From positions 12,511-76,510 of the forward strand of contig BCIJ01000004.1 in assembly GCA_001599935.1 (NCBI GenBank): a stretch of DNA of 64,000 nucleotides, given 5' to 3'. This DNA is from Holtermannia corniformis (taxonomy: Eukaryota; Basidiomycota; Tremellomycetes; Holtermanniales). Both the position numbers and the translations under genes were made by a program. The notes under the pieces were generated by a model, which saw only the letters and a program-made list of their open reading frames with translations, was not told the DNA's origin and made no database searches. Below, piece by piece: positions 2,610 through 38,254 of the stretch (positions are counted from its first letter, which is position 1; each line of letters opens with the position of its first letter).

Positions 2610-4195
2610 TCATATCCTATCTTGTGTGTCATCCACCTGCTGTGCGCGCGCATGCAGTACCGTTCTCAACCCATCGAGGAAAGCGCGCTCGAGGTCGGGC
2701 GACGGCCAGCAGCGATTACTGCAATCGCGACCCGCCTTGCCCATCAGCTTGTACGGTTTACGCCGTTGACGCGCTCGAGGGCGCAGCGCGACAGGCTGGA
2801 GACGATTCGTGTGAATAGGCGAATGCACATGTAGTTGTAGATGCGGGAGAAAGACGATGCCCAGCGGCGCCAGGATTGGGGGCAACAGCCGTCGAAGGAT
2901 CAAGACTCCACAGCCGTCATCAGCATCCATCACGTTCATCCTTCACACTGACCTTGAGCGTTCTGGAACGAGCTCCAGCGATCTACCAACGCTCCATCCG
3001 GTGCAACACCCAGAAACGCGCTCAAGCCGCGCTCCTCACGCCAATGTGAGCGTGACCCGCAACCAATCTCTACCCCCCATTCCTCGCGCCAGACGACGAC
3101 TTTGGACTGCAGCTCGTCGTGATCTCTGATGTCTTTCAAGGTGCGCATCACAGACGGTAGATAGACTTTGAGAACTGTTTCAAACGCGATGGCGAATAGC
3201 TGCGCTTCGGGGTGAACTAGGGTTTGGGACGACCAGCGAGCAATGAGCGGCTGAAAGGGTTTGGCGTCCGTATCCACCAAAGGCAGTACGAAGTGCTCAA
3301 TGTCCCATTGTTGATCCGGATCAGAACCCTGGGAGAGCTCATAGCTCCGCTTCGGCGCCGGTACCGGCCCTTTTGATAGTACCACCACGTCTGCACGTCT
3401 CGCGGCCGAGAGCCACCACTGATGCGGTTGAGCGATCCACTCTACCCCCTCCCGTCCTCTGACGCCCTTGAAAGGCGACAACGCAGTCGACAGCACGAAC
3501 CGTACCGTCGGTCGTTGACTTTCTGGCAGGTCACGCTGGCAGACTACGTGGCTGATACAGCTGTCTGCCGCGATGCAGCCTACGTCGCGCTGGGCTAGAG
3601 CGTCGAGGACGAAGTCGTGGAGCGAGTATTGGATTGTGGAGCCTACGAGCAGGATGGAGCGGTTGGAGAGAAGGTGGCAGAGTGATGGAGGGGCAGGAAA
3701 GGGGTTCTGACAAGTGCCGATCGTTGACGAGACATCTTGCAGCGTTCCGCGCTTGCATTCACGCCCGCGATTCTGGTGGTGGTGGACAGGTCGTACGATG
3801 GTCGAGTTGGACACCAGCGGTTGCGTAGCCTGGCACTCTAGTAGCGTGTTCAGCTGGTGCGTCCTGGCAGCCTGTGAGCCGTGGGGATCGAGCCGAAGGG
3901 ACTGAAGCGCGATTATGACGGCTTCTTCAGTGAAACGGATTGATTCGGCGTAGATTTGCTCCAAGGACGCGAGCGTCGCGTTGTGTGCTGCCGACGGGTG
4001 CGTGTATCGCAGAGTTACAGGTCGAGCTGTCCCTTGCGGAACAGCATGCCATCGCCAGCCAGTGATCAGCAAGACCCCTGTTGCGAGCAGCATCAAACCC
4101 CTGATGATCATGTTGCGCATCGGCGTGCACGTCCCCACTGGAATCAGCAACGTCTCGTGTGACGATTCCCAAACGGGCCGTTTCATCCTATACAT
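2610..4195 (-). CDS. PC-esterase/SGNH-like type II membrane protein
   Basis: This is a predicted Golgi or cell-surface type II membrane protein. A single hydrophobic anchor (IIRGLMLLATGVLLITGWRW) follows a short basic N-terminus. The lumenal part has features of the fungal PC-esterase/TBL-like SGNH family: a first block RSILLVGSTIQYSLHDFVL, which stands where the usual GDS motif lies but reads GST, a middle block ADVVVLSKGPVPAPKRSYE, and the late block WSSFQNAQ. After a 47-nt intron the last exon continues ILRRLLPPILAPLGIVFLP and GRDCSNRCWPSP. Such proteins are thought to esterify or de-esterify glycans; the substrate is unknown. The missing Asp in the GDS-like motif leaves activity uncertain. 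The ATG follows the VPS55 stop by only 3 nt on the same strand. The start could also be the in-frame ATG three codons later. Confidence 0.65.
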
Positions 4196-20050: not shown

Positions 20051-21394
20051 TCAGAGAACAACGCTCTCGATCATGCCTCTGCCTTCACCCAGTATCGCCT
20101 CGATCGTCCCCGCAGCTAATCGCTTCTTCTCGTCTTCCGCCTTCTCCTCGGCGCTTCTGACATCCACTGGACGCTCCTCGCGGCGTGGCTTCTGCATGCG
20201 CTGCGCAACCCAAGCTGATAGACGACGCAAGCATTGCCAGGGTGTCTTCGGTTGAAGATCCCGTCTGATCTGCTCGATGATGCGCACACACTCCAATGCC
20301 CGCTCGTAGTCGGCATTAGGAGGCGGCACGAAAGAGGTATCCACCTCGTGGACCCCGATCGTACGGATGTGTGAAAAGAGACGCGAAAAGGTCTCGGCAT
20401 TCGCCTTGCGATCGAAACAACTGACCTTATACTGACTTGGCAACTTCTCGAGACAGCCCAACAGATCGAAGCGGAGGGCGGAGTCACTGCTAGGGCGCAA
20501 TGGTGGCGGTAAGCATGTTTCAGGGTCGTCGACAGGCAGGAAGAAGACGGCGGCATTGTAGCCCGATGTGGGGGCCGGTCCGATAAACCTTGCCGTGCAG
20601 CGGGGCTCATAGTCTTCATGAGCGGCAGAGGAAGCGGAGAAAGGCCTGAATCCGCCATCCAGTGGTGTTCCTGTATCTTCAAGGATGCGAACGCTCCTGC
20701 GCCAAAACCATAGCAAGTCTACCGAGTCAGCATGAACTTCTCAATTTGTCGAATAAACTTACCCCGCATACCCTGGACCTACCGGACGGCAGTCAGCCGA
20801 GTTCTGAAGCCGACCAAGCCAATGGACGTACCTCCAAGTTCCATTTAGTCACTGACTCGAAGTCTCCACGACTGCCAGTGGAGAGTGCCGGGCACGGTCC
20901 CTCGCACATCGCCTATGAATACATCAGCTGTGATCACTTGATCTATGAAGTATCGTGAAAAGTACGCAGGGACCCCGTTTCACGTTGCGACAGCAATGTT
21001 TGAACCACCAGTTCCGACGGTCGGCTTCCTTCTCAAGAAGGCTGCCAAGGATTACTAGTTGTCGACTCATGACTACGCTGACTCACTCTGTAAGCAACAA
21101 AATATACTCGCGGTCGATCTCTACGTAGCTGTCTGCTGATTTGGGGTGTGGCAAGAGGAATGTGAGAATGTGGATACGCGGACGGTCGTCGGTCTTGACG
21201 TAGCGGCAAGACGTAGTCGAGTACACTCCGGAGGCGTGCAAGGGTGAGAATCGACTCATGCCAGCGTCGAGGCTAGTCGTAAAATCGAAGTCAGGCATCG
21301 TTGCGTCGGTCGGTTGTTCGCTGCAGAAGGAGGTGTTGGCGAAATCCCAATTGTGAGGCGGAGGATCGGCGTACGTAAGCGACTGTTGACACAT
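20051..21394 (-). CDS. Family-A paralogue A1 (unrecognised family)
   Basis: I do not recognise this protein, but it is clearly related to the genes at 24589-25768 and 28502-29675. Conserved blocks in order are CRYVKTDD with a short strand, SYVEIDREYILLL, an exon with VGTGGSNIAVA, an exon with the Cys-x3-Cys-Pro motif (MCEGPCPAL), then a terminal exon with LEDTGTPLDGGFRPF. A charged helical tail follows (RSAEEKAEDEKKRLAAGTIE). There is no signal peptide or membrane segment, so a cytosolic or nuclear site is likely. Starts at 21394 (MCQQSLTY), 21298 (MPDFDF) or 21259 (MSRFSPL) are possible. The gene is head-to-head with B1, whose ATG is at 21475. It is the longest C-terminus of the family. Function unknown. 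Confidence 0.6.
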
Positions 21395-21474
21395 GAAACA
21401 CAGACACAGCGCACGGACTAAACAGTCTGAGTGCTAGCGAGGACAAGTAGCCAGTACTCAGGCAGCCAGCAATC

Positions 21475-23337
21475 ATGCTGTCAGTACTGAAGAGCGTCGG
21501 TAAATCTCTCTACCAGGCAACCTTGTCATTGTGGCCGAGACGCGAGGATTTGCCAACCGTTCAACCCGCACCTCAATCTTATCCTTTGCGTGAGTTGGAA
21601 AAGCGGTGACGGCTCTCCGGGTCACTCAAGCTTACCTCCCAGAAGCTCTCGGTACATCCTCTCCAAACAGACCCTCGTCGACTACAAGTGCGACCCATCC
21701 ATCACCGACTGGCAGCACCTCTACGACCGTTGCGACAGGCATCGCGCCGGGCGCACAAGGCCAAGGTCCTGGTCAATCTACCGGCTCAAGCACTGCGACC
21801 CGTCGTCATCGTCGGCATGACAGCTGCATCTCAACCATCGGAGCACTCAAGGCGCAGCTCCAGGAGCGGCGAGCTATGAATGATAAGCAAGCCAAGATCA
21901 TCGCCACCAATCCAGGGCATCCGTCGACGGATTTCTGCTTACATAACCTGTCGTACGGATCCGTACCCGCTGAAGTCCGTAACAGACGGATTCGTCTGAT
22001 ACGGACTGTACGGAATCCGTAATCCGTCAGAGGCCTGGGACATGTTACGGATCCTGTTACGGATATACGGACTTACGGATCCGTAACAGTATCCGTAACA
22101 TGTCCCTGCAACTCTGGATACGGCATGTAGTTAGCAGATTCTCTGCAGATCGGCATGCATCATGTGTGACAGTCATTACCTACTTCAACAACAGCATAGA
22201 CAGTCTAGACTGTCGCTGCTTGCAATCACGTGACACAGCTTGAAGCAACCTCTGATTAAATCCGTAAATCCGTATCATACGGAGTCCGTAATCCGTCAGA
22301 GGTTTCCAGGCTGTTACGGATCCGTCAGTACGGATTACGGACTCCGTCCGACGGAAACCCAGGGGCGATTCGCCACGCAGAGCAAGGGGATTGATCGATA
22401 CCAGACACAGACGCGGGGGATCTTGCAAAACCAGATTCGCCCGGCTAAGGACTATGTAGCAGGTCTCGAAGCCGACCTTGCCATCCTCCGTGCCAAAGCT
22501 CTGCGACGCGAGCCACCAATCCACCTTTCGCGTCAGGACGGCATTGGCAAGATCCCCGATGGCAGCCAGTTCCCCCCCGGAACCATCAATGTGGCCAAGG
22601 TCATGAAAGGACTTGGCTGGCTGGCTGAGGGGGAGAAGGCGGCCGTGGCGGCTAAGAGCATGCGCGCACACCCGACGCAAGGTGTTGATGCGGCGCGGTG
22701 TCGTCGAGAAGGGGCTCAATACTGGTGGTATGACTTAACTGCGGACAGATTACAGGTGGGTTGCGACGAGTCTCTACCGCTGTTTGACATGTGACTGATA
22801 CACTGTTACTTTCAGGAAGTGAGCAGAGATTGCTTGGAGCGAGGCGACGCGGCACTGCAAGAAGGCTTGGGCGAGCACCCAAACATCAAGGCGTTGCTGG
22901 ATGGGATGTTAGAGCATAACGGGGCGTCAGGGTGTGTACTGAGCTCCCTTCTTGAGTGAAGAAATCGTCCAGCTGACGGACACGCAGAGCAAATCGAGCC
23001 CTGGCTCTATGGCGCCCTCGTCATCTTATGCAGCATCGCCATTTTCCTCGCGAGCATCTCCCAAGAGCTCATCCTGGCCAAGAAGATTGAGGAGGCGGGA
23101 CATGTGCTGTCGGGTGCCTACTGGACGCTGGTGCTCGGCCTGATGATCTGCATCATGACAAACGTCGTGTTGCTATGGCATCAGTTCCTGCAGAGAGGAT
23201 CGTTTGAGCGCTGGAGCTTGGGCGCGCACGAGGACGTCACAAAGGCTTGCGTGGGCTTGTTCGGCTTCGCGTATTTGATGGTGTATACGCTCGGCAACGG
23301 CTACCATCAGGTATTCTCCAGCTACCTTTTCCGCTAG
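21475..23337 (+). CDS. Family-B paralogue B1, three-span membrane protein (unrecognised family)
   Basis: I do not recognise this protein. It shares its layout with B2 and B3. The short amphipathic N-terminus (MLSVLKSVGKSLYQATLSLW) splices into a Ser/Thr/Gly-rich linker and the helix KAQLQERRAMNDKQAKIIAT. A fold-back repeat (21918-22370) then interrupts the coding sequence, either as an intron or as an insertion. Coding resumes at QNQIRPAKDYVAGLEADLAI. Three membrane segments follow: WLYGALVILCSIAIFLASI, YWTLVLGLMICIMTNVVLLW and ACVGLFGFAYLMVYTL. The family-wide motif GNGYHQVFSSYLF comes next. An in-frame TAG (23335-23337) sits directly before a GTACGT donor. Beyond the next acceptor is an open Ser/His-rich tail (to about 23487) like the tails of B2 and B3, so B1 may be C-terminally truncated. 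Confidence 0.55.
21918..22370. repeat. Fold-back repeat rich in TTACGGAT words, inside B1
   Basis: This stretch of about 450 bp is packed with TTACGGAT/ATCCGTAA words. The best arm pair is 22037-22064 against 22079-22106: 28 nt with one mismatch and a 14-nt loop. A word block around AATCCGTCAGAGG occurs twice (about 22020 and 22293). The outer edges look like imperfect inverted ends: a CCAGGGCATCCGTCGACGGAT side and a TCCGTCCGACGGAAACCCAGG side. It could be a small non-autonomous transposon or a fold-back element. It lies within or between exons of B1. I could not define a target-site duplication. Confidence 0.55.
22199..22214. repeat. Perfect 16-bp palindrome GACAGTCTAGACTGTC
   Basis: A perfect 16-bp inverted repeat lies inside the fold-back repeat of B1. 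It may be part of that element's structure or a protein-binding dyad. No function can be assigned. Confidence 0.5.
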
Positions 23338-23758
23338 GTACGTGTTTTAATTGTTCTGCTACCTGCTCGACCATAGCTGACAGAAGACGGATGCGTCGTT
23401 CAATCACAGGACTACCCAGTCTGTCTTCGAGTCAGCCGCAGCTCATCACCATCACTCATCCGTCGTGTCCACAAGCTTTACTGTTTAATACTTCGGCTCA
23501 GCATGTTCATCAAGCCCCAGCATCGTATCACTCGCTAGCGGTACGTCTGTCGCTTGGCTTGAGTGGCATCGTCGTGATTAGTACTGACGACGCAGTCGTC
23601 CCAACACCTCCGTCCTCTGTGTCACAAAATAATGTGAGACCGCAGTATTGTGTATAAACAGTACGTATGGGTGATAGTCACTGCCGAAACCCAAGCTGAT
23701 CCATGTCCGTAGACCACATCATCATTTTCTCTCGGACTCGGACTCCTGCTCGCGCTCG
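23338..23758. other. B1 3' region with lost-tail exon; otherwise empty
   Basis: A GTACGT donor begins at 23338, directly after the B1 TAG. The next acceptor (TGACAGAAG, near 23387) opens a 33-codon frame containing RTTQSVFESAAAHHHHSS that ends at a TAA near 23487. This resembles the Ser/Thr-rich tails of B2 and B3. The remainder to 23758 shows nothing convincing. Confidence 0.35.
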
Positions 23759-24235
23759 TTATTCCAAAGCATCATCAAGATCCATGTTGTCTCGATTGTA
23801 GGCTAAATGCGAGCTCGAGCTTGGGGTACCGAGCCTGCGATGCACAAGTTCTCGTCGATTTCGGTCTTGATCGGCCGTCCACTTGATCGATGTCAGCGCA
23901 AGTTGAAGGACATGAGACCTGCGAGGCAGAGAGATAAAGTGATCCACGGCCCCACTCGTCAGACTGATGAATGTCACCAGGCGCCTCAAAGCGCACATGT
24001 CGCGATTTCTCCGTTCCTTGTCGACAAACTCATGCAAGGCTTTAGCCACTTGGCGGAGGCCGAAAAGCCAAACAGGGCCGCGACTGCTCATCGCGCTCAG
24101 CCAAACACAGTCACCGACGATGTGATGAACGGTCATGGGACACGCTACGAATGGACTGATTCGAGTCCGCAAGGTCTTTAGGTGAATTAACAGCGGCCAA
24201 CATGAATACAAGTAATCAGGGTCATGCAGCTTCAT
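23759..24235 (-). pseudogene. Decayed family-A terminal-exon fragment
   Basis: An open frame on the minus strand aligns loosely to the terminal exon of A2. YLYSCWPLLIHLKTLRTRIS sits where A2 has IYMFMACIARLEAKDTPLDG. LHEFVDKERRNRDMCALRRL followed by VTFIS matches A2's LFIEYVARERGTLKIPQHLT followed by IS. The upstream exons with the VEIDRE and Cys-x3-Cys-Pro blocks are not found nearby. I read it as a remnant copy left by duplication of the A/B unit. It could instead be a short diverged gene. Similarity is weak and by eye. Confidence 0.35.
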
Positions 24236-24588
24236 GCCAAGAAATACATCCGACAGGGTGATAAAGAGGTGCTAAACGCCTTCAAAGATCATCCAGCAGG
24301 GTCGGATCGAGCGACCATGTCAGTGGTCTGCAGCGGACTGGGGGTCACCACGTGTTGGTGACTTGCGTCCGTGTTTCGGGTTTGCATGCTGATCGCACGG
24401 TTGCGGACCACGACGATGCATCAAGGACATTCCCCATATATCTACACACACATGCATAGCGATGCTTGAAAGGCACAAACGAAAGCAAAGATATCAGACA
24501 CAAGACTCCTTGATCACTCGACAATCGGCTCGAGAGGAACAAATGGCGAAGGGTTGATCCAACAGCGCGATGTCAAGACGGAGGATGT
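24236..24588. other. Intergenic, nothing recognised
   Basis: Between the decayed A fragment and the stop of A2. No motif-bearing frame or RNA gene is visible. Confidence 0.3.
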
Positions 24589-25768
24589 CTAGCGCCGGCG
24601 GACACTGGCGACCACCTCCTCGTACGAGGGCAGCATCGAGCTAGGCTCGTCACTCTTCCTTTTGCGAATCGTCTTCTTCCGCGCGCTCACTGCTCCTTGA
24701 CAGCAGCGGAAGACGGACTCGAGCGGCTGAATGAGATGATGCTTGACCACCCACACCAAGTCGTTATCGATCCAATGAACCGCTCGACAGGGCAGTGGCT
24801 GGGTGCATTGGTCGTATCGTAGCAGAACATGTTTCCAATAGGGCATCCGGCCTTCAAAAGTGCTTATGGTGAGATGCTGGGGTATCTTGAGTGTGCCTCG
24901 TTCACGGGCGACATACTCGATAAACAATTTGACCTCGGCGGAGTATTGGATCCATGGTGGGAGTTGATGATATACCACAATCACGGGGAGCTTGAAGAGT
25001 TTTTGCGAGTAATCACCGGTTGGAATATTACACAGCGGCGAGCCAAGGATGACGTCGACCGTGAGCGTCCGGTGACACTGTTCAAGTGCTTCGAAGTTGG
25101 CGAAGTGGCCGTCTAACGGCGTATCTTTGGCTTCAAGACGAGCAATGCAAGCCATGAACATGTAAATTGGACCTATTTGATGGTCAGACAGCGCTCTCGT
25201 GCGGTGAATCACGGCAAGTGACGTACACAGCTTTTTCTTGATCTTTTTAATTCACTGTGAGTATACAGATTGAGTTGTAGCCTCACATACCTGCTCCACC
25301 CAGTCTCGATCCGGCTTCAGGAGCGACGCATTGAGCCCAAAGGACGGGCATGAGCCTGTGGTGCAGAGCTCCTGTTCGGCTAGTCAGCAGGTGCTAGTCC
25401 TTACAAACAAACACGTACACACGGTCCATCGGATCCGTCACGTTGAAGATGCGTGAGCCACCACTGACGCCTATGTAGTTCTTTCTCGAGACCACTGTCG
25501 GTGCGTGAGCATTCCGTTCGGAATTGGGCTGCGACTTGGCTCACTCCCTGATCATCACCAGCACTTCCCGTTTAATCTCCATCCATCCTTCTTCGTTGAC
25601 GAAGATATATCCCCAGATAATGAATGAGGTTATGAAGAGGGGCGAATCAAGATTGGAGGTGCGCACGTAGCAGCAGGCACTCGTTCTGCGCATAGGTGTC
25701 AGACGACGATGGGTTAGTTTGTCGATGAAGGGCGCCGCAAGTTGCTTTAACCCTTCGTAGCGTTGCAT
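24589..25768 (-). CDS. Family-A paralogue A2 (unrecognised family)
   Basis: This is the second member of family A. ATG 25766-25768 is chosen because it aligns with the A3 start (MQRYEGLKQLAAPFIDKL against MTLLESLQACAEPFQQQL). Blocks in order are CCYVRTSNLDSPLFITSFII, WMEIKREVLVMIRE, an exon SRKNYIGVSGGSRIFNVTD, an exon LCTTGSCPSFGLNASLLKPD with DRDWVEQ, and a terminal exon MFMACIARLEAKDTPLDGHF. The basic C-terminus includes KKTIRKRKSDEP, a possible nuclear-localisation patch. Introns of about 50-60 nt fit. It is head-to-head with B2, with ATGs about 200 bp apart. No known domain is recognised. The conserved CxxxCP may be a metal-binding or disulfide motif, but that is a guess. Confidence 0.6.
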
Positions 25769-25969
25769 CTTGAGGAGTATGAGATAGGAATCGAGGGACT
25801 GAGTACGGTGTACAAGCAATACGGCTCGATTTTTGAAGGTTTGAAGGTCAGACGGGATGAGAAGTAGACCGGTGGTCGGGCACGTGAAAGCATGTCATCT
25901 GAGTGCGCATAGACCGGGTCGGTGTCAACCTCGTCTATCTCGTTTAGGAGCTCTCCTGCAGTTTGCAAG

Positions 25970-27101
25970 ATGTTCACTTCCATGAGTCAGGTCGCCCGCC
26001 GGCTCCGCGGCCTCCTCAGCCATAGTACGCATACGGTTTCTCGCCGCACCACCTTCGACGTGGAATTGGGTCGTCAGCCCGCTTCGGACGCTGCGGACGC
26101 TGCCAACGGTTTGGAGACAGCTCAAGGTCAGCGCATAGTCTGGATTGCTACAGATGATGACATGTTAGCTGATACTATACTCTTCAAGGCATGGCGTGCA
26201 ACCCCGGCTCGCCCATCAGCTCCGCAGATCCACTTGATGCCGACGCGTCTAGGATCCTGCATCCAAGCAACACGACTGTTCCGACGATCCCAAACCTACC
26301 ATCTCTTCCGCAAGCACCGATTCAGAGCGCAGAGATGCACGTCTACATGGAGATCGTCCACGGGATCGCGGCGAGCACTATCGCCCTCGCCACCCGGCAA
26401 GAAACCGAGCTGGCGCATGTACGAAGACAGCTTGAGCGAGCCGGGATCCAGTCGCTTACCAGCACGGAAGCACACTCGACTGAGAACAGAACGCGGGCAA
26501 CAAGCTGTACGTGAAGCTTTTCGCTGTGATATGCCTTGCATTGATCCACATCAGATGCGCCAAGTCTGCCAGTGCTGGTACTGAATGGTGCCGTAGCCTT
26601 GGCTATCGTTGTTCTGCTGGCTGTACGACGCCGCTTAACAACGATGAGCCAGATCGACATGGCGGCGAGCGTATCATTCGCAATGTACATCCTGGCGGCG
26701 TCTGTGGGTGTTATTGGGTTCGGCGAGGTTGCCTGGCAACAACGATGTCACCTTCACACCAGTGAGACGCTCAAGATGGCAAGCGCTGCGTTTCTCACCT
26801 CGGCATCTGCTGCTTTTACTGGCGTCCTGTTATTGGCAGTGATCACCGACGGGACTGGCTTTGACCAGGTGGTCACCTCATACCTCCTGCCCACCTATGG
26901 TACGCCGCTGGCATATAGGTTTTGTCTAAGCTCATGCGTTACTCAGCTGAGAGGAACTCGACAGAGCTCAACTCTTCCGCCAACGCTTCTGTCAACGCTT
27001 CTTCAACCGCCGAACGCTTGGTAAGCGCCATATGTCAAGTCTGCCTTAGCTCGTCAACTTGACAGTCAGTTGTCTATGTCGGCCCAGCTACCAGCGGCTA
27101 A
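25970..27101 (+). CDS. Family-B paralogue B2, three-span membrane protein (unrecognised family)
   Basis: ATG 25970 opens an Arg/Ser-rich amphipathic N-terminus (MFTSMSQVARRLRGLLSHS). After an intron come a Pro/Ser linker and the helix VYMEIVHGIAASTIALATRQ continuing ETELAHVRRQLERAG. Three membrane segments follow: LNGAVALAIVVLLAV, SFAMYILAASVGVIGFGEVA and AAFTGVLLLAVI. The family motif TDGTGFDQVVTSYLL is next, then a Ser/Asn-rich tail (ELNSSANASVNASSTAERL). The end is probably TAA 27099-27101 after a last intron; without that intron the stop would be TGA 27060-27062. LAVRRRL after the first membrane segment is shared exactly with B3. The cell membrane in which it acts is unknown. Confidence 0.6.
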
Positions 27102-27579
27102 ATCACGAGACGTAATCCACAGGCCTCTACCTTCCCTGCGTTCCCTTCCGCTGTAGCATACAATTCGAAGTTTGAGCATCAGTCCCGCACACGCCCCTTC
27201 GCACACTGTACAAAGCATTTTCACTGTGGCACTATCACTTCAATCAGCCAAAAGTACGGCTGTCGTCGGTATGAATTACAATGTGTACAACTTACCACGT
27301 TGACGAGACAACGTTCTGTGTCTCAGCCAACTTTCGCTCCAGCGCGCCCAAGTCCTTCCTGTACAGGTCAATAGCAATAGTGTACTCTACGTGGAGAAAG
27401 TATCACCTAGACTTTGACGATGCACTCTGGTCGATGCAGTTACCGTACGTAGCCTGCTTCCTGACTGCATTGCTACATTGTAAGCGTACGTTGCTGATGA
27501 CGAATGACCGAGCTCTCGCTGCCAACTGGGAGGACCGAGGGGCTGCTAGCATCGCTTGCTTCTGAGTCACTTCGTGATA
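27102..27579. other. Intergenic, nothing recognised
   Basis: Between B2 and a decayed A fragment. A 94-codon plus-strand frame at 27281-27565 shows no relation to families A or B or to any domain I know. Confidence 0.3.
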
Positions 27580-27870
27580 TCAAACAGATTGAACCAGGAC
27601 TGACGCGCCGTTCATAGTGACAACAAAACATACGACATTTTCGCTCCATTCCTCAGCCTCTGCGCTCTGTGAGTCAACCGAGATGTCTATGTGCTGGGTC
27701 CTGGTGAGGCTGACAAGCCGCTCGTATAGATCAGCAAATTCCTCTTCGTGAGATACACCACGCACTTCGAAGCCCCTCAGGTGGCTGACTAGCATTGCGG
27801 TCTTGTACGTTGCCACAGCTAAAGGCTCGTGTTTCTTGCTAACTCTCGAAATCACACCAGCCGTTCGCAC
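27580..27870 (-). pseudogene. Second decayed family-A fragment
   Basis: This minus-strand frame loosely matches the middle of the A1 terminal exon. EEFADLYERLVSLTRTQHID sits opposite A1's AETFSRLFSHIRTIGVHEVD, and EWSENVVCFVV sits near A1's DYERALECVRI. The GTPLDG and Cys-x3-Cys-Pro blocks are missing. It is probably a remnant of a further A copy between B2 and A3. The evidence is weak similarity and position in the array. Confidence 0.3.
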
Positions 27871-28501
27871 CCTTCGATTCTGCCTACCTGTCGCACTGAG
27901 TTTGAGATGAATGACTGTGACTGTGACAAGACTCGTCGAGATGCGCCTGCGACACCGGCAAATGAACCGTTTAAGCTCCTACACACGTATGCGCTTGCAC
28001 TTGGCCCATGACGGTGTTGCGCGAGCGCATTGCATGGAAATCTGAGCGCTTTATGTGCTTCGGCTGGTTGACAGTGATCGGGTCATACCAATGGCAGCCA
28101 TACGTCTCGTTGACAGTCACTGAGCCCCACTATACTGTAAAGTGAGCTTGCTTGTTTTACGGACTGAACTGGACTGTGACTCGGAACAAGGAAGAGAGCC
28201 GACGCAGGAACAAGCGCTTGCAGACGTGGAAACCGGCAGAAAGATATATATATACTAGCTACTGTACGTTGTCTGAGGATATCAAGGCAGAGGTTCGGCT
28301 GATGACAATAGGATGGTAGATGTGGGACGAGATCGGTTTGAATGGATCGCGCCGAGTTAAGCGCGATAGTGAGACTATAGGCTATCAGCTCCCGTGGGGT
28401 TACCTGCTGCCAGCTGAAACACCGGGCAAAGAATTGAGTGCAGGTGAGTCTGACACAGGCTCGGACAAGCGCACGAAGGATGTAACTCACCCTTTTGAAG
28501 A
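27871..28501. other. Intergenic, nothing recognised
   Basis: About 630 bp between a decayed A fragment and the stop of A3. Frames here have no family-A, family-B or other recognisable motif. A short TATATATATA run lies near 28244. Confidence 0.3.
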
Positions 28502-29675
28502 CTAGGTTGTCTTGTGCTGAACATCGCCTGCCTCGATCTTTGATTGGCAACGACCTCTGCTCGTGCGTGTTAGTGCCTTCTTGAATCTTGAGCACAAGCG
28601 CCACTCGGGTATCAACAGGGACCCTAGCGGCGTTCGCTTCTTCACAGACCCCACTGCGTCAGGTGGCGGAGTCTCCGAGGGAGGTACTGCACGCATAGCC
28701 GCAGCATACCGTCGCAACATCTCTTGCCACTTTGGCGAGCTTGGATCCCAGGTACACCTGAGATAACGGTCCTCAATCAGACCACTGCCGCTTGTCGGCA
28801 AAGCATACGCTTCTGTGATATTTTCTGATGTCGCATGGGCGATGTAAGGCGGCAGTCTGCAGCTGTCGCTCAGAATAGGAATGACGAAGACGTCACCTGA
28901 GTAGTATGAGATGGGAAGCGGTGGCGGCGAGTCCATGATGAGGTGGTGGCTGTCGAAAGTAGGATGGAAGCGTGGTCGTATGTCGGCCTCCCAGAAGGGA
29001 CCTTCAAGAGGCGTTCCAGCCGCTTCAAGACGGACCATACAGGCCATGAGGAATAAACCATCTCTGAGCGCGGTCAGCTGTGCTGACGTTCAGAAGTCTC
29101 AAAGCCACGCACGAAGAGATATCTCAACCTGCGCGGACAATATCAGCAGGAGCATTCCGTCGCGTCCGAGCGAGTGACTTACACATTCAACCCACTCACG
29201 ATCCAGATGCAAGAAGCATGCTTCAAGGCCGAAGGCAGGACACCTTCCATTACAAGTGTGCTGTGGGACGCATCAGCACTGACACGAGCATCGTATCTGC
29301 AGTACTTACGCATGGTTCGGACTCGATTGATTTTTGAAGATGGTATAGCCACCATCGACGCCTAGACAGTTCCTGCTCCCACGCCCTAGAGTGAAATTTA
29401 TAAGTCGTTGCCGAGCGTTGCGCTAGCGGAGCGTTTTTTACTCACACTCGTGTAAGGATGAAAAGCTCTCGATCGACTTCCACCCAGCTTTTCTCCATTT
29501 CTGGGCCTGGTAGTAATCCCCAGAAGACAAAAGACTTGATATGGATGGGTTTTGCAAGATCGAAGGTGCGAACGTAGCGACATACGGTCGTTGCCAGTAC
29601 AGGATGCAACAGTCTGTACTGAAGTTGTTGCTGGAACGGCTCAGCGCAAGCCTGGAGACTTTCAAGCAGAGTCAT
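28502..29675 (-). CDS. Family-A paralogue A3 (unrecognised family)
   Basis: This is the third family-A member. ATG 29673-29675 opens MTLLESLQACAEPFQQQL. Blocks in order are CRYVRTFDLAKPIHIKSFVF, WVEVDRELFILTR, an exon SRNCLGVDGGYTIFKNQS, an exon CNGRCPAFGLEACFLHLDRE with EWVEC, and a terminal exon MACMVRLEAAGTPLEGPFWE. The C-terminal third is shorter than in A1. Intron positions match A2 (after VEVDRE...LTR, after the GG block, after DREWVEC), which supports common descent. Its head-to-head partner B3 is now 7.2 kb away behind the Helitron. Confidence 0.6.
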
Positions 29676-29986
29676 TTTTGACACTGCGTGTACTTGTAGT
29701 TAATGTCGCAACGGTTGTACACGAACATTTCACGTTGGCGCTTTGCGCGACCCGAGACCGCGGAGAAAAAGGCACGTGATTCTGCCCACGCCGTCAAGCG
29801 CACTGACCGTTGGGAGCTCAGTAGCTGCCAGCTTCTCCGCGGACAACTCTAGTGGGAGAGATCAAGACCTTCAGCTACCATCAGGATTCATATCCCCGGG
29901 TTCGGCATGCGCCGTTGGGATGAGCGTCGGTCGACTCCGACAGGCGATCCGAACTTGGAGCTAGGCGTCAATGTCGCTGTTATGTA

Positions 29987-30295
29987 TCCCGTTTATGGGC
30001 GGCTTACGGGTTACAGGCATATTTACGGGTTTACGGGCTTTCCCGTAAATTTACGGCTCTGCCCGTAAAGTACCCGTAAAGCGCCCGTAAGAGATCCGTA
30101 AGAGACCTGTGAGAGACCCGCAAGGCATGTAAGGAACCCATAATACACGATGAGGCTTCGAGACACAGTATTTGCAGGTGAGCAGCTTCAGTTTAGCCCG
30201 TAAAAGCTTGGCCACTCTATACGCTCCCGTAAGGATTTACCCCGTAAATTGCCCGCGACTACTTACGTAATAGCGGGCGCAGAACGCTTTTACAT
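29987..30295. repeat. TTACGGG/CCCGTAA-rich 5' end of the Helitron
   Basis: At least a dozen TTACGGG or CCCGTAA words lie in direct and inverted order in about 300 bp (for example TTTACGGGTTTACGGGC and CCCGTAAATTTACGG). They could form hairpins and may be the subterminal sites bound by the element's Rep protein. No coding frame is convincing here. Confidence 0.55.
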
Positions 30296-30467
30296 GGGGG
30301 CTCTGTAATGCACTAGGCCACGTGCGGAGGTCTTTTAAGCGGCTTAAATCAGCTTGCCTATGCGCAGTTTCGGGGGGGAGCCTATGCAACCCCTTTTTTG
30401 TTAGCTGGCTGCCTATGCAGCTTGCAGATCACCGTTTGAAGCTTTGCTGGCTGAACAAAGAAATTGA

Positions 30468-33400
30468 ATGTTGTATACGTACCACTGCAACAAGGCTAGG
30501 CAGTCCCGCTGCCTTGCCCCGCAAGACCTAGCTCTTGAGTTGCAACACTTTTACAGACCTGCTACACGACGCAATGGGCCATCACTATTCAATCAATGCA
30601 GCTTCTGCCGCCAGAAGGATCCTATACCTCCCCCTACGCAGCTCACACCACGCAGTCTTCACCGCCTTCAAGGCAGCTCAACTGTGGTTCAGCTCACACC
30701 AAGCACTGCTCGAAGTCAGCCGCGTCGTCGACTGTCACGCACTCCCTCACCCTCTCCACAACGTCCCAGTCCACCACTTCTGCCTGTGCACACTCCTCCT
30801 CAGCGACCTCAACGCCTGCGACGCCCACCTGTTCGCCCATACGATACCCCGCCAACACCAGAACAGCTGCCGACGCCGCAGCAACTGCCACAACCAAGAT
30901 TGCCACCGCACAGACCACGTGTCCAGCAAGCAAACCTGCACGCTGGCCAGCAGCTATGTAGCACTTGCGGACAGTGGAAATCACTGGAGGGAGACTATGA
31001 TTGCAATCCACGAACTCGGGTGGCATACAGATCTTGCCGTGCATGCTGTGAGGTGCGACGGAACAGAGCCAGAGCAGCCCGGGATGCTCGGGAGCAAGTG
31101 CAACAGCGTGAAGTCTCATCCAGTTCCTCCTCTTCCGACAGCTCAGACTCAGAGGATCTCTCAGCTTGGGACCTCACCAATCTGGATGCCTGTGCTATCT
31201 CCGACGAAGCAATGGATGCCATTGCAGGGTTCCATGCCGAGCTTGACACATTGGACTGGTCAACTTGTACCAACTGCAACGAGCGGTGGTTCGACTTGGA
31301 TGTAAGAGAAGGCATGTGCAAGCCGTGTCGCACAAGCCCACACCGGAAGATCAGGTTTGGACCAGAGAACAATGTTGATCCAGGTACGCTGGGTAGCGTC
31401 TCTCGGTATTGCAACTGACAACTCAGGACCCAATCTGCAGGAGCTGTGCCAAGCAGACGGAAGGCTTGCACCCGAACCTCCAACACAGATAGAGGAGATG
31501 CTTCTGTCTCAAGTGCACGTCCAGCTACAGATCTGGAAAGTCTCCGGTGGGCAGACCAAATACTGTGGACACACGTGTTTATTTGCGCGTGATACCGGGT
31601 CCTTGGCAACAAAGCTGCCATCCATTCCAAGTGAGCTGGATGTCTTGGTGGTCAAGCGCGCCAATGCAACAGGAGAAGACATGCAAAGATTTGCACAGCG
31701 CGCAGAATTTCAAGTCAATCGCGCGCGTCTCCTTCAAAACCTACAAGCACTGCAGACCTATCACCCCGCATACCACATGATCGAGGTAGACTACGCTGCC
31801 CTTGCCACCCTCCCAGAGAATGGCTCCATCTTCCACCTCCTTCCTGTCACTACTCTCACTACCGGTCAAGACACAGACAATACCGGGCCTGATCTGTCCC
31901 AGCACAGTGGCCAGGAGGGAGGGAACTTGGTGTCCGAAGCAGTTGTTCCAAATGTTGGTGCACAGCAAACAGAAATGGCAGCTGCGCGCAATGCTCTTCG
32001 TGCTGTTGCAGGTACCACTGCACGCAATGCACTTGCAGTGTTGTCGGCACCTCCCATCCGAGTCACGCCATACAATGAACACGACCTGAACCAAGAATAT
32101 CTTGTGCGCGCTTTTCCCTTCCTATATCCCTCCGGTCGAGGTGATCTCCACGGTGTCCGCTACTCCAATCCGGAAGAACCAAACAAAAGTTATGCAGTGA
32201 GACCACACGAGTACTACAAGCATCTCATGCGGTACCGAGATGGGCGCTTTGCTGCACATCCGCGCTTCAGGTATGTTTAATCCCCAACAATATACGACGT
32301 GCTGAGTGCATAGATACTATGCGTTCAATAGCTTGCAGCGGTGGCAAGCCAAGAGTATGGCGGGCGTTTATGTTGCGCGCAATACAGAAGACCGCCAGCT
32401 CACAGCTGGCGAGATTGCTGAGCTGCTAGAAGACGATGTGCGGCGATTGGCGCAAAGGGTTCGCAACCATGCAGCCAATCTCACNGGGTCGGCACCATAC
32501 TGGGCAAAGCANGGGAACGACCTGAAAGCAATGAANCGGCAGATTGGACCCCCACACGTGTTCATCACCTTTTCAGCTGCCGACATACAATGGCAGGACC
32601 TGCACCGTCATATGCCGCATGGAGAAGGCCAGGAAGTCCCTCAAGCTGAGGCCCTACGGCAGCGACAAAACAGTCAGAACATAAATGACAATCCGGCGAT
32701 TGCGGCATGGTACTTCCAGCGCCGATGGCAGCTCTTCTTCAAGCAAGTTGTCAATAAGGTGCTGTCAGTGGCAGATCACTGGTACCGTTACGAGTGGCAG
32801 CATCGCGGCTCAAGTCATGTGCACTGTCTCTTATGGTTAGAGAACGCACCATCCGTGGCAGAAATCAATGTTGCCCAGCAGCGCACACAACAAGCCTTTC
32901 GAGCATTCTGGAAACCACTCGTCACTGCGCTCAATCCAAATGCTGCCGAACCACCATCAGCAATCCATCCTTCCGCAATCCCGCACGCCGATCAGGGCTA
33001 CACCCTACATGATTTGGCACAATTGCTCAATCGGGTTCAGCGTCATACCCGATGCTCACCGTACTGTTTGCGCAAACCCAAAGGCGCAGCTGCTGATGCA
33101 CCCCTCTCCTGCCGCTTCAAGTTCCCAAAAGACATTCTCGAGGACATGACACTCACTGTCAATGACAAAGGCAATGTGCAGATGGACCCACCCCGCAACG
33201 ATCCGCTGCTCAATGCATATTGTCCCATCTTTGCCCTGGGATGGCGCGCCAACACGGACATGACTGTTGTCACCAGCAAGTACGCTATTGAGGAGTACCT
33301 GGCCAAGTACGTCTCCAAGGCTGAACGCCCTTCGGAGAATTTTGCAGAGGTCATGCGCGGGGTTAGTCACAATATCGACGAGGATACATCAGCACGGGTT

Positions 33401-35729
33401 GTCTTTCAAAAGATGTTCAGCAAGGTATCCAGCGAGCGGGACTACAGTGCGCAAGAAGTGTGCCATGCGCTACTTGACTGTCACATGCGGTCTTCATCAC
33501 GATCTTTCATCTCGCTTTGCCTTTTGGAGAAACGATCGAGACGCTTGCGAGCACAGCAAGGAAATGACAACAATCAGGATGCGTATGATGAGAGAGTGGA
33601 AGCAGACGACTGGCGCGACCAGTACCTCAAGCGTCCTGAGGTGCTTGAGGGTGTCAGCCTGTACGAGTGGTTCAAGCTGTACCGCAAGAACCGCCATGGC
33701 GAGGCACAGATTGGCCGAGAGAAGATTGTCAATATTTGGCCGCCTTATCATCCAGCAGCAGAGGATACACAGGAATATCAAGACTGGTGTCGTGCAAAAG
33801 TCATGCTGCACCATCCGCACCGCACTGCAGAAGAATTGCGTCAAGAAGCTGAGGGGTGGTCAGACACCTATGCGCGGTGCTTGGCTGATCACCCTGAAGG
33901 ACACAAGGATACGTTACCTACAAGGAGACGCCGCAGCAGAGGGCAGGCTGTTTCGGATTCCGAATTCTCTGATCCCGAAGCAGAGGAGGAGGACCGCGTT
34001 CAAGAGCCATTCCATCACATGGCAGCAGAAGGCGGCATGCGCATGCGAGAGGACGCACACAGTCTTCTTGGCAAACGTGACATTGACCGCAATATGGATT
34101 GGAAACAAGCGGCCCAAGAGTGGGGCCCTGAAGGACTTCAGGAGCGCATCGACTTCTTGCGGATCAAGCGGCAGGAGGTATGTTCGAACAGCAGCAGTAG
34201 CACTTATTGACAAGTCACAGTATACCGAGGTTGCGCAAAGACCAGAGGTTGATTTGACTCTGCTGAATGATACTCAGCGCAGTGTCTTGAACCGAGTGGT
34301 ACATCACGCGGGGCATATCCTCTGTAACCAAGCAGTACCACCGCTTCTGATCAATGTTGATGGCACCGCTGGCACCGGCAAATCGTTTTTGATTGATGCC
34401 ATATCTCAAGAGCTTGAACGTCTGGCATCGGAAGAGCAGCCAGCTGCTGGAAGTTCAATTGTGCGGCGATTGGCACCAACTGGGGTAGCAGCATTCAACA
34501 TTGGCGCACAAACCTACCATGCAGCACTTGGGATTGGGATCGACATCAACAAGCCACTGTCACAGGCGCGCTTGGCAAGACTGCAAGAAGAATGGCAACA
34601 CACGCGCTACCTCATCATTGACGAAAAGAGTATGATCGGCCAAAAGTCGCTGGGTCAGATCAGTGCTCGACTCCAGCTCCTGTTCCCTGTCAGGAGTGCA
34701 GAGCACTTCGGTGGGCTGAGCGTTTTGCTCTTNGGTGATTTCGGACAACTGCCGCCAGTTGGGGACACTGCNCTGTACCAGCCAAGGCCGCGTGCTGGCA
34801 CATCTGAAGCNGCNCGCCTTGCAGCACTTGGNCANGCNGCATATCTCGCTTTCAAAGAGAGTGTCGAACTTNGTCAAGTCATGCGGCAAGCTGGTGTTGA
34901 TCCAGAAACAGTCGCCTTCAAAGCAACCCTGTCACGGCTTCGAGCTGGTAATCCCTCTACTGCCGACTATGCCCTGCTCCGCTCACGATTTGTGGACAAT
35001 CTATCTGCCGATGCTCGCAATCTCCTAACAGATTGCCCAATGCTCTGCAGTAAAGCAGAAGCCGTCGAGGAGCGCAACTACAATGGACTGATTCGGGCGG
35101 GCAATCCAGTCCTTATTGCTCCAGCCCGCAACATTGGTTCTGGCGCAAAGTCTGGTACGGAAGAGCAGGCCGAGCACCTACCAAACAGGTTGCTGCTTAT
35201 GCCAGGCGCCAAGGTAATGCTCACACGTAACCTGTGGACGTCACAAGGCCTTACCAATGGGACAACTGGCTGGATTAGCGCAATAGGATTCACAGAGGAT
35301 GCCCGTCCAGGTCTTGACCCACCGAGTGTGGTGATGGTTGCAATTCCAGGCTACCAAGGTCCGACGAACTGGCGCACCGAAGACGGTATACTGCTTGTGC
35401 CCATTACACCAGTTGCAGCAACTTGGCAACATCGCGGCCACCAATGCCAGCGCTTTCAATTCCCACTGCGCATTGCTTATGCTGTCACTGTGCACAAGTC
35501 ACAGGGCATGACATTGGACAAGGTACGCATCAACATCGGCACCAACGAGTTCTGCAGAGGTCTTCTGTTTGTGGCAACGTCTCGTGTGCGGTCACTACAG
35601 GGGCTCGTCTTTGACCCCGGTTTTGCGGAGGCGCGCCTCATGCAGCTCCAAGGACCCAGCCCTACAATTGCAGATGATGAGCGGCGGCGTCTGTTGGGAC
35701 TGGGTGTCTGCTGGTGTGAATTGCTCTAA
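30468..35729 (+). CDS. Helitron Rep-helicase (HUH endonuclease + PIF1-like helicase)
   Basis: This enzyme nicks, unwinds and transfers one strand of the element. The Pro/Gln-rich N-terminus carries two Cys-rich zinc-binding-like motifs (LCSTCGQWKS...CRACC and CTNCNERWFD...CKPC). The Helitron-like N domain follows (NQEYLVRAFPFLYPSGRGDL). The HUH endonuclease motif is WQHRGSSHVHCLLWL, and the two-tyrosine motif is EEYLAKYVSKAE. The helicase has Walker A GTAGTGKS, Walker B LIIDEKSMIG, GDFGQLPPVGD, and the late motif AYAVTVHKSQGMTLDKV with FVATSRVRSLQGLVF. Four exons with three introns (near 31385, 32274 and 34176) join into one long frame. All catalytic motifs are present and there is no frameshift, so it may be active. 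N bases at about ten sites hide a few residues. Confidence 0.88.
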
Positions 35730-35788
35730 CGTAGGTGAACTACTCAGCACGTGACACTGCTGTAGGCGCGACATAGACGCAATGCATC

Positions 35789-37112
35789 TCACTCGTCCTC
35801 AATCACAAACAAGTTCTCAATCTCCGCCCTCAGCACAATGCGCTTGGTCTCGGTGGCACCGTCCGTCCAGCAGGTGAAAATGTACTGGTCACCCTCGGTG
35901 CCAGCACCAGGGGCTGCCACCAGCCGGTGGAGCTGTTGCTGTGAGAGGAAGGCAACGGCTTGCCCTGGCCGTATCGGAATGTGTCGTCCAAGCTGCGGGA
36001 GCTCCAGCACTGCTGGCTGACCAATGACCGTGATGACTGTGTAGAACAGTGCTACAGCGGTCAGCGTCTTGTTGTATTGCAAGCCACTCACGGTAGTCCC
36101 CCTCATCGTAATGCCAGTCGGTGTCGCCCTTGGAGACAGCCAACATGGTACCCATGCCACCAAGCCGGTAAGCACTGTTGCCTTTGTGTGTCGAGTCTGC
36201 ATTGTTAGCACTTGCAGCTAAGTCACCGCTGTGTTCGCACTTACCGAGCGCCACTCGAGTTGCTCGGAATTGTTTGTCTTGTTTGGCATTCAGATCCGCT
36301 GAAGCAAACAGCCGAAGGTCTTGAGCAATCTGACGATGGTTGATCGTCATCTTGGCAAAGGTTGGCTGGTCCATGTCCCGCATGAAGCCACGGTACTTCC
36401 CGAAGATCTTGTCAAATCTTGCGACCAGCTGCGCAACAGCAGGTTGAATGTGTGTGTTCTTGCGGGAGTCCGCCGAAAGGAATGGGACCGAAGTGTACTT
36501 GGCCCAGACGCCGAACCAGTATTGGTGAAATGACTGGCCTCGAGCGGCAGTGGTGTGGTACTTCAGCCCCTTCTATGCATCTGTCAGCGTTGTTCTGTAG
36601 GCATGAAGACGTACTGTTTCAACGCCTTTGACTGCAGCCAAAAGCCTGCCCTCCTCACGCTTGGAGTAAAGATCAATGCGGAATGCCGACCAACGCGGTG
36701 TTTCGCCCGGAATGAAGTTGGGATTCTCTAAGCAACGCAGTGGGTCAGCGTAATCACAACAGCACAGTAGCGGCAGTATGTACCAATTGCAACGGGTCCT
36801 GATTGAGGCAGCGTCATCTGGCTTGTCGGAGTGGACTCAAAGCGGCTCAGCAGTGTTGATTTTGCCTCGCCTTTGACCTGCATGACAATCAGCAGCGTCC
36901 CCAATCACACCTGCACCCACTTTGTCAGTCGGTTTTACGTCTGCAAAGGTGCTTTCAAAGACGCGAGAGGGTCGCAGTCCGCTTGGCAGCACCAGTCGTA
37001 AGTCCAATCCTGGCGCATTGCTTGAATCCGCAGCACCCCCTGGCTCCTGCAAACCATGACTAGAGCCCGAGGACATTGAAATCCGCGGCATCAGGTCTCG
37101 GTGGGGGTGCAT
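35789..37112 (-). CDS. 2-oxoglutarate/Fe(II)-dependent dioxygenase carried by the Helitron
   Basis: The spliced minus-strand product has the double-stranded beta-helix features of a 2OG-Fe(II) dioxygenase. These are an HxD iron motif in GDTDWHYDEGDYP, a strand pair with ELPQLGRHIPIRPGQAVAFL, and the distal histidine in SQQQLHRLVA. The upstream part has PNFIPGETPRWSAFRIDLYS, KGLKYHTTAARGQSFHQYWF and VAQLVARFDKIFGKYRGFM, a helical N-terminal domain. Exons run from ATG 37110-37112 through introns near 36900, 36760, 36600, 36200 and 36060. It converges on the Rep-helicase gene with about 60 bp between stops. Fungal TET/JBP dioxygenases that oxidise 5-methylcytosine are known to travel with other transposons, so a DNA- or histone-directed role is plausible, but the subfamily is not settled by eye. 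Confidence 0.6.
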
Positions 37113-37187
37113 AGTCAGTAAAGTGGTCAGTAAGATGGTGGATGTCGAAGCTGACAGCCAGGCTGAAAATTTTGAGGGGTTAGAACT

Positions 37188-37221
37188 GCGCCCGCTCGAT
37201 GCGGCGCCGACGTAATCCTAG
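37188..37221 (+). other. Putative Helitron 3' terminus: hairpin plus CTAG
   Basis: The arm GCGCCCGC (37188-37195) pairs with GCGGCGC (37201-37207), leaving one bulged C and a TCGAT loop. Ten nt later CTAG (37218-37221) is followed by T. This spacing matches canonical Helitron 3' ends. Confidence 0.6.
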
Positions 37222-38254
37222 TCATAAAGCCCGTTTACGGTATAACAGTCATCCCCGCTGGTGGAAGCTGCAACACAGAAGCCGGCCAAAGCGAAGACTG
37301 CGAAGGTGATGGCTCCCAGCATAGCGTCTCAGAGCTCGCAACTGTACCGAAGAATAGTCCGCAAGACAAGGACGAAGGTAGCACGGCATGCAGAGCCGCC
37401 GCAGCCGCGTTGTCGACAGCGGTTGACCTGCTTGCCGCGTCGAACCCACCGGCATCGCAAGCTGTCTCAGACTCCTACAGCCTGCACACAGCCGTGCTGG
37501 AAACTTCTTCGGGGCTCATCATGACCCAGAGCGCCGTCATCGTGAGACTTACCGACGAGCTGGCAAGGGTGACTGGGAACGATTCCGCGCCGCCATCCAC
37601 CTGTGAGCATTGCTTTTTAAAGCCCATGTGGTTCAGTCACTGAGATGTCTGACACAGATGTCCCGAGTTACGTCGCGCTCGTTTTCCTCCTGCTCCTCGA
37701 CGTCGCTGTGTGCGTTCTACTCGCTGTGCGCAGGCGTTTGAGCGACGTCGGCAAGACTGTGCAGGCAGCCAAGGTGTCGATGGCAATGCTGTAATTGGCT
37801 CTGGGCGCGGGCTTGATTTGCGCAGCAGATGTGACCTGGCGCCTACGTCGCAATCTCGCACAACGCAGCACCGTCGAGGCCGTCAGGAACGCGTCTTTGA
37901 CAACAGCGTCGGTGGGCCCGTGCCGCTTCGTGGTGTTTGTGGTGGTGACCGATCTTACTGGCTTTGACACGATATCGGCTGCAGTTCTCACACAAGCCTT
38001 CAGTAGCCGTGAGTTCGATGCAGATGGGCAACCAAAACGCTCGCTAATGTGCGCTTGTAGAAAGCTCGACGAGCGCGGTATCGGCAACAGCGACGACTAT
38101 CTCACAGGCAGCGGCAACAAGCCTGACGAGTCCTTTCGCGCATGTAGAGCAAGCAAAAACCCAGACCGGCCTCGATCCCTTCTCTGCAGCGCTCACCTTC
38201 TCAACACAGCCCTTCCACTTGCCGCATATCGACCCCCTCGTAGTCTGTATATAG
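37222..38254 (+). pseudogene. Family-B paralogue B3, disrupted
   Basis: This is the third family-B copy. It has the linker helix SYSLHTAVLETSSGLIMTQS, the first membrane segment YVALVFLLLLDVAVCVLLAV followed by RRRL (as in B2), and the family motif TDLTGFDTISAAVLTQAF. After an intron comes a Ser/Thr/Ala-rich tail ending in LVVCI at TAG 38252-38254. Two lesions are visible. A TAA (37792-37794) falls inside the second membrane segment where B2 has Tyr. The Helitron lies directly upstream. One frame is open to the Helitron junction and, with the element removed, would join an ATG at 29971 five codons away. Alternatively translation starts at ATG 37309 and the Helitron sits in the shared A3/B3 promoter. 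Confidence 0.6.

Follow-up and report, generated by a model that had tools for sequence, protein, structure and literature searches.

The 64,000-nucleotide stretch analysed here (the window; bases 12511-76510 of contig C4 of the Holtermannia corniformis genome) carries a tandem array of two unlike gene families, which we call A and B. Three A genes on the minus strand alternate with three B genes on the plus strand from 20.05 to ~38.0 kb. The contig measures 1.03 Mb in an assembly of 20.2 Mb and 55 contigs; C1, C3 and C8 are further contigs of the same genome, and coordinates are window positions unless prefixed by a contig. The array members and the stretches between paired starts are the following.

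20051..21298, minus: A1; exons 21298-21087, 21041-20966 and 20912-20832, with a homologous open frame at 20716-20051; possibly decayed
21299..21474: A1-B1 start-to-start stretch, 176 bp between putative start codons
21475..23337, plus: B1; putative ATG at 21475, membrane-span exon within 22960-23337, repeated elements in the middle (~21908-22369)
24589..25768, minus: A2; exons 25768-25545, 25494-25419, 25371-25291 and 25230-24589; 340 amino acids, no stop
25769..25981: A2-B2 start-to-start stretch, 213 bp between putative start codons
25982..27024, plus: B2; ATG at 25982 (or 25970), introns perhaps at 26127-26188 and 26507-26554, three C-terminal spans
28502..29675, minus: A3; exons 29675-29446, 29385-29310, 29260-29183 and 29077-28502; 319 amino acids, no stop
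37136..38007, plus: B3, a pseudogene; span 1 from 37660, a TAA at 37792-37794 in span 2, the rest from 37795

Architecture of the array

An earlier sequence-only reading proposed that A on the minus strand and B on the plus strand alternate as head-to-head pairs. This arrangement holds for pairs 1 and 2 (176 and 213 bp), but the B start placed near 29.8 kb in pair 3 was not confirmed. No B start could be established there, and the recognisable part of B3 lies at 37.2-38.0 kb, separated from A3 by ~7 kb of mobile DNA. As predicted from gene orientation, pairs 1 and 2 consist of unlike genes transcribed divergently, a feature which they share with homeodomain (HD) loci.

Putative start codons of the A genes are found at 21298 (A1), 25768 (A2) and 29675 (A3). 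All three modelled copies follow a four-exon plan with phases 2, 0, 0. Exon 1 measures 212, 224 and 230 nucleotides in A1, A2 and A3, respectively, exon 2 is 76 nucleotides long in each copy, and exon 3 measures 81, 81 and 78 nucleotides. The boundaries are GT-AG sites picked by eye with the other copies in view, so that the agreement in size and phase is partly a matter of choice; three acceptors are open for A1 exon 3 and several are possible for A2 exon 4. Matches between copies were scored in a set of 745 segments of the region with composition correction off, and 45 of the 98 matches are listed. Exon 1 of A3 matches that of A2 (E = 1.2e-15) and of A1 (E = 8e-9), and exon 2 is matched in all three comparisons (E = 2e-7, 5e-7 and 1e-5). 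For exon 3 the match links A2 and A3 (E = 8e-7), and for exon 4 the matches link A2 with A3 (E = 2.7e-12), A2 with A1 (E = 1.6e-4) and A3 with A1 (E = 4e-3). No match to another copy is found for A1 exon 3 among the matches listed; it is recognised by its cysteine motif, size and position alone. A1 is possibly decayed, because no in-frame splice from exon 3 to exon 4 was found: from the one donor considered, an in-frame connection of the modelled exon 3 to the exon-4 frame fails at all 11 AG sites in 20641-20800.

The A proteins had been described as soluble with a CxxxCP motif. Indeed, A2 and A3 contain no membrane span at the hydropathy threshold used, while the motif is better written P-C-x2-C-x(3,4)-C-P. 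It spans the exon 2/3 boundary in all three copies (PCAMCEGPCP in A1, PCELCTTGSCP in A2, PCHTCNGRCP in A3), and a role in metal binding would be a guess.

Hydropathy places three membrane spans near the C-terminal end of B2, which is ~280-310 amino acids long as modelled. The three-span topology first ascribed to the whole family thus stands for B2; in B1 two spans pass the threshold and the third is visible by eye only. The N-terminal half of B is of low complexity, as judged by eye. The nearest relative of B2 is B3, which shares 38% identity with it over 117 residues (in the genome search, a joined query gave E = 2.3e-14; in the 745-segment set, the second piece alone gave E = 1e-3), and B1 and B2 share 26% over 108 residues (E = 9e-5 in the 745-segment set and 0.066 genome-wide). 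Since B1 is only weakly related and its middle holds elements recurring in the genome, the three-copy status of B depends partly on position and topology. Strict splice thresholds gave no model for B1 or B2 (in B1, none joining the ATG and the span exon). Under looser thresholds B2 is open over three exons; 36 and 32 models were obtained from its two ATGs, and the introns given above are therefore a choice. The start and N-terminal part of B3 (37136-37650) are assigned by eye alone.

The short repeats at 21908-22369 in the middle of B1 have 19 further matches beyond their own place, one of which lies inside the window. Two plus-strand open frames, at 22400-22791 within B1 and at 23807-24178 between B1 and A2, are weakly alike (33%, E = 0.0055; E = 2e-4 in the 745-segment set) and are possibly part of B1 and a remnant, respectively. 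These weak matches mark a candidate third repeated gene at 22.4-22.8 and 23.8-24.2 kb.

Mobile DNA separates the members of the third pair, where two longer repeated stretches were delimited.

30265..35688, plus: Helitron stretch between A3 and B3; 97.6% identical to C3:755958-761380, element ends approximate
35814..37119, minus: second repeated stretch, a gene without recognised family; shares 69% identity with C3:78140-79415 and is not one of the A genes

The first genome-recurring stretch of pair 3 starts at 30003, ~330 bp beyond the A3 start, and the insert as a whole comprises a small repeat, the Helitron stretch and the further repeated gene. On the simplest reading, mobile DNA inserted into either the A3-B3 spacer or the first exon of B3. 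The missing start of B3 may survive as a short frame near 29.92 kb. The Helitron N-terminal domain is recognised by a Helitron_like_N match in 32306-34210 (E = 4e-34); the open frame 33267-35729 is helicase-like by eye alone. Because the sister copy on C3 differs by 2.4%, the Helitron arrived, on this estimate, long after the pairs were duplicated. Segments from its first ~160 bases account for 21 further matches out of 33, and the 11 ambiguous bases of the window all fall inside this stretch.

Pieces of the gene at 35814-37119 gave no Pfam match or one at chance level only. Its HxD-type motif recalls 2-oxoglutarate oxygenases. The segment at 36.6-37.2 kb, considered as a fourth A gene, was discarded because it is part of the repeated stretch with a relative on C3.

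Taken together, pair 2 alone looks intact on both sides, pair 3 combines an intact A with a dead B, and pair 1 is doubtful. The decay of some copies and the transposon invasion seen by the sequence-only reading are borne out, the decay being unequal among the pairs. A2 and A3 are 34% identical over 311 aligned residues.

Age, constraint and family identity

Genome searches with single A or B sequences, which scored only the best candidates and covered the assembly from 12.5 kb of C4 onwards and the other contigs, lead back to the array. A3 gave 7 matches at E<=0.01 and A2 gave 9 at E<=1, all of them exons of A1-A3 at C4:33464-42185. B2 found itself and B3 at E<=0.01, a limit at which B1 was not reached, and B1 found itself and B2 at E<=1. 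In these searches with A2, A3, B1 and B2, no copy was detected outside this locus in this genome.

Between A2 and A3, the proportion of differences is 0.473 at amino-acid-changing sites (pN) and 0.727 at silent sites (pS), the latter near saturation, giving a pN/pS ratio of 0.65. After 300 shuffles of the codon columns, the ratio averaged 0.95 with a minimum of 0.845, although the contrast with the observed value is somewhat flattering since the shuffles were not realigned. Constraint is uneven along the protein: exons 1-3 are 44% identical with a ratio of 0.47, and the last 155 aligned residues are 23% identical with a ratio of 0.82. Comparisons involving A1 and comparisons between B copies gave pS of 0.65-0.81 and pN of 0.40-0.58. 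With silent change this close to its ceiling and amino-acid change lagging behind it, the copies look old and constrained, like proteins under selection. This constraint at the protein level argues against random open frames. It also withdraws support from the earlier description of the pairs as fast-evolving, since fast evolution is not demonstrated by a pN/pS of 0.65.

Neither family gave a meaningful match in Pfam, NCBIfam or the PDB, and no Pfam match reached its cut-off. Below threshold, B1 matched LtrA (E = 0.0014, 18.4 bits against a cut-off of 31.9 bits) and B2 matched Abhydrolase_9_N (E = 0.69) and DUF3675 (E = 0.059), which looks like generic similarity. In the PDB, nothing was found for A, and B2 gave only E = 0.58 and 0.76. 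The protein-database search, made with A3, returned nothing at E<=1 among 952 candidates sharing words with it; this null is weak, because A2 and A3 have no exact five-residue word in common and relatives as distant as these paralogues would go undetected by shared words. As a control, an exon of the Rho-type GTPase found 6146 proteins (120 of them listed), the first named fungi being Tremellomycetes. Among the matches listed were Saitozyma, Naematelia, Dioszegia, Kwoniella, Vanrija and Cutaneotrichosporon, at 81-87% over ~35% of the query, and such fungi are therefore present in the database. Structures predicted from three-row alignments for A3 exon 4 and the B2 span region were unusable (mean predicted local distance difference test scores of 38.5 and 52.3). 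Two unfamiliar families in one array, as first proposed, are thus what the searches support. That reading had named two observations able to overturn it, mostly unpaired homologues elsewhere and a match to a housekeeping domain; searches with A2, A3, B1 and B2 found no copy elsewhere in this genome, and no Pfam match of A or B reached its cut-off.

Searches for domains of known recognition and conflict systems were likewise negative. The A and B pieces have no homeodomain match in Pfam, which is at odds with the HD1/HD2 content of an HD mating-type locus. Across the genome PF00046 gave 7 matches at E<=0.05, none in C4:12-76 kb and one on C4 ~0.7 Mb away; PF05920 gave none, as did its control. 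The homeodomain matches at C4:754022 and C8:625967 could include mating-type HD genes. All five genome matches to the STE3 receptor are on C1, so a pheromone/receptor locus is not seen here; they fall in two separate STE3-like regions (649900-653421 and 1866556-1867508). No Pfam match in A or B names HET, NLR or another known het domain. Likewise, no Pfam or PDB match names a driver (wtf, Spok or others), a negative that comes from these databases and not from aligning A and B with the drivers themselves. Transposase-like Pfam matches are absent from both families, and the genome searches detected none of the dispersed copies that a transposon would have. No inverted repeat of at least 40 nucleotides was found in 18-42 kb with 12-nucleotide seeds, and the four spacers have only one 12-nucleotide match in common (E = 0.28).

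Among the genes near the array are those for an MCM-binding protein, STT3, tubulin, a Rho-type GTPase, Avl9, SIR2 and a kinase. Guanine-cytosine (GC) content is 52-56% at 20-38 kb and 57-63% at 0-14 kb. At third codon positions, GC ranges from 0.50 to 0.77 in pieces of A and B and from 0.565 to 0.747 in genes nearby, so that the two ranges overlap. A single-exon frame of 419 amino acids lies nearby on the minus strand (2936-4195); it has no Pfam match and no relative in the protein database at E<=0.001 among 7994 scored candidates. An Rfam scan of the window gave no match.

Functional readings of the pairs

The A/B tandem array looks real and old. Its unit, as modelled, consists of two unlike, divergent genes with ~0.2 kb between their starts, tandemly duplicated long ago and now present as three diverged pairs. 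We tentatively favour, at less than even confidence, a reading in which A and B are functional partners, with the effector role falling to the membrane protein B and the role of partner or antidote to the soluble A. The two genes would probably be expressed together, B acting in a membrane and A in the cytosol or nucleus. The N-terminal half of A, which is the more conserved one and contains Cys and Trp residues, could be the common working part, and the variable C-terminal half could confer specificity on each pair. In pair 3 it is B that decayed and A that stayed open, which makes B the likelier candidate for the active or harmful role and A for that of regulator or antidote. An antidote that outlived its poison would leave such a picture, although one such pair is thin evidence.

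Related stages and layouts are known. For the wtf poison-antidote meiotic drivers, a stage has been proposed at which the antidote remains after poison decay (PMC5478261), and antidote-only genes also occur among toxin-antidote loci (PMC12941216). Small, intron-containing, lineage-limited membrane proteins with decayed and antidote-only members are common ground with these systems (PMC5478261, PMC12941216). However, wtf drivers make both parts from one gene and have about six spans (PMC5478261), whereas two predicted genes are involved here. The het-B locus of Podospora likewise pairs two dissimilar neighbouring genes, and in one of them the C-terminal specificity domain is divergent; these genes encode a HET/lectin-fold protein and a PII-like protein and form no array of pairs (PMC10890737), whereas no such Pfam match is found in A or B.

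Several points weigh against a partnership of A and B. The pairing signal comes from only three copies at one locus, and the asymmetry of decay from a single pair, while A1 may be the broken member of pair 1. The link of B1 to B2 is modest (E = 0.066 genome-wide), and strict splice thresholds yielded no exon model for B1. The poor structure models provide no fold in support of an antidote, toxin or metal-binding role. Finally, the 9-mers common to the pair promoters are few, about the chance level by our own estimate; CCAAT, TATAAA and ACAAAGGG are not common to these promoters.

An ordinary paired function is nearly as likely as the partner/antidote reading, though doubtful in itself. A and B would then be lineage-specific neighbours that were copied together, whether or not they cooperate, and that serve some everyday purpose at membranes or in trafficking. 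Silent sites near saturation beside a lower level of amino-acid change are the pattern of old, quietly kept paralogues, no convincing promoter motif is held in common, third-position GC overlaps that of the surroundings, and the neighbouring 2936-4195 frame, also without matches, indicates that missing matches are not special to A. Yet families confined to an alternating array, several members of which appear decayed, would be unusual for a routine function. Were all three pairs pseudogenes in a transposon-rich region, the broken B3, the doubtful A1 junction and the repeats interrupting B1 would be accounted for, but A2 and A3 are open over four exons and B2 over three under loose splice thresholds, and we regard such a dead locus as quite unlikely. 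A trapped, decaying two-gene mobile element would suit a region rich in mobile DNA; as the searches found no copies elsewhere, no inverted repeats of at least 40 nucleotides, a single spacer match and no transposase-like Pfam match, it receives very little credence from us.

The array geometry also fits multi-pair recognition loci, and the pairs could be alternative specificities of a locus for self/nonself recognition or mating compatibility, comparable to the multi-pair homeodomain MAT loci. Mushroom HD/MAT-A loci comprise several adjoining divergent pairs of two different genes at one locus (PMC5100862), much as here. However, A and B lack a homeodomain match, B is a membrane protein, and the flanks, as far as identified (tubulin, STT3, Rho-type GTPase, Avl9, SIR2), include no MIP or beta-flanking gene. 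The mat locus of Tetrahymena thermophila offers a second parallel: MTA/MTB form tandem head-to-head pairs with membrane exons and incomplete copies in the germline (PMC3608545). There, both proteins have membrane segments and the pair is completed by DNA rearrangement, whereas only B has spans here and the organisms are unrelated. As homeodomain and STE3 matches occur elsewhere in the genome and not in A or B, this explanation is improbable, and classical mating-type loci are excluded for the array by its predicted domain content.

A bolder form of the partner/antidote reading, which we hold to be unlikely, would make A and B the first members of two new families. Together these would give Tremellomycetes a module of several specificities for poison-antidote action or self-recognition, in which B is the three-span membrane effector, A the pair-specific soluble inhibitor and the alternative specificities stand in tandem. 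Among the papers listed by keyword searches of the literature, a thin test, no title or abstract opening dealt with a pair of this sort from Tremellomycetes. The layout of the array is of a known kind, and the proteins belong to no family recognised here, relatives as distant as the paralogues being undetectable in the protein-database search.

If A and B are ordinary genes, the locus still offers a clear case in which a gene pair without recognised family was duplicated long ago. If the bolder form is true, two unrecognised protein families would make up a module for conflict or recognition. With a single locus and one pair that looks intact, the array would be easy to test genetically, with two short genes, one common intergenic stretch and three natural versions.

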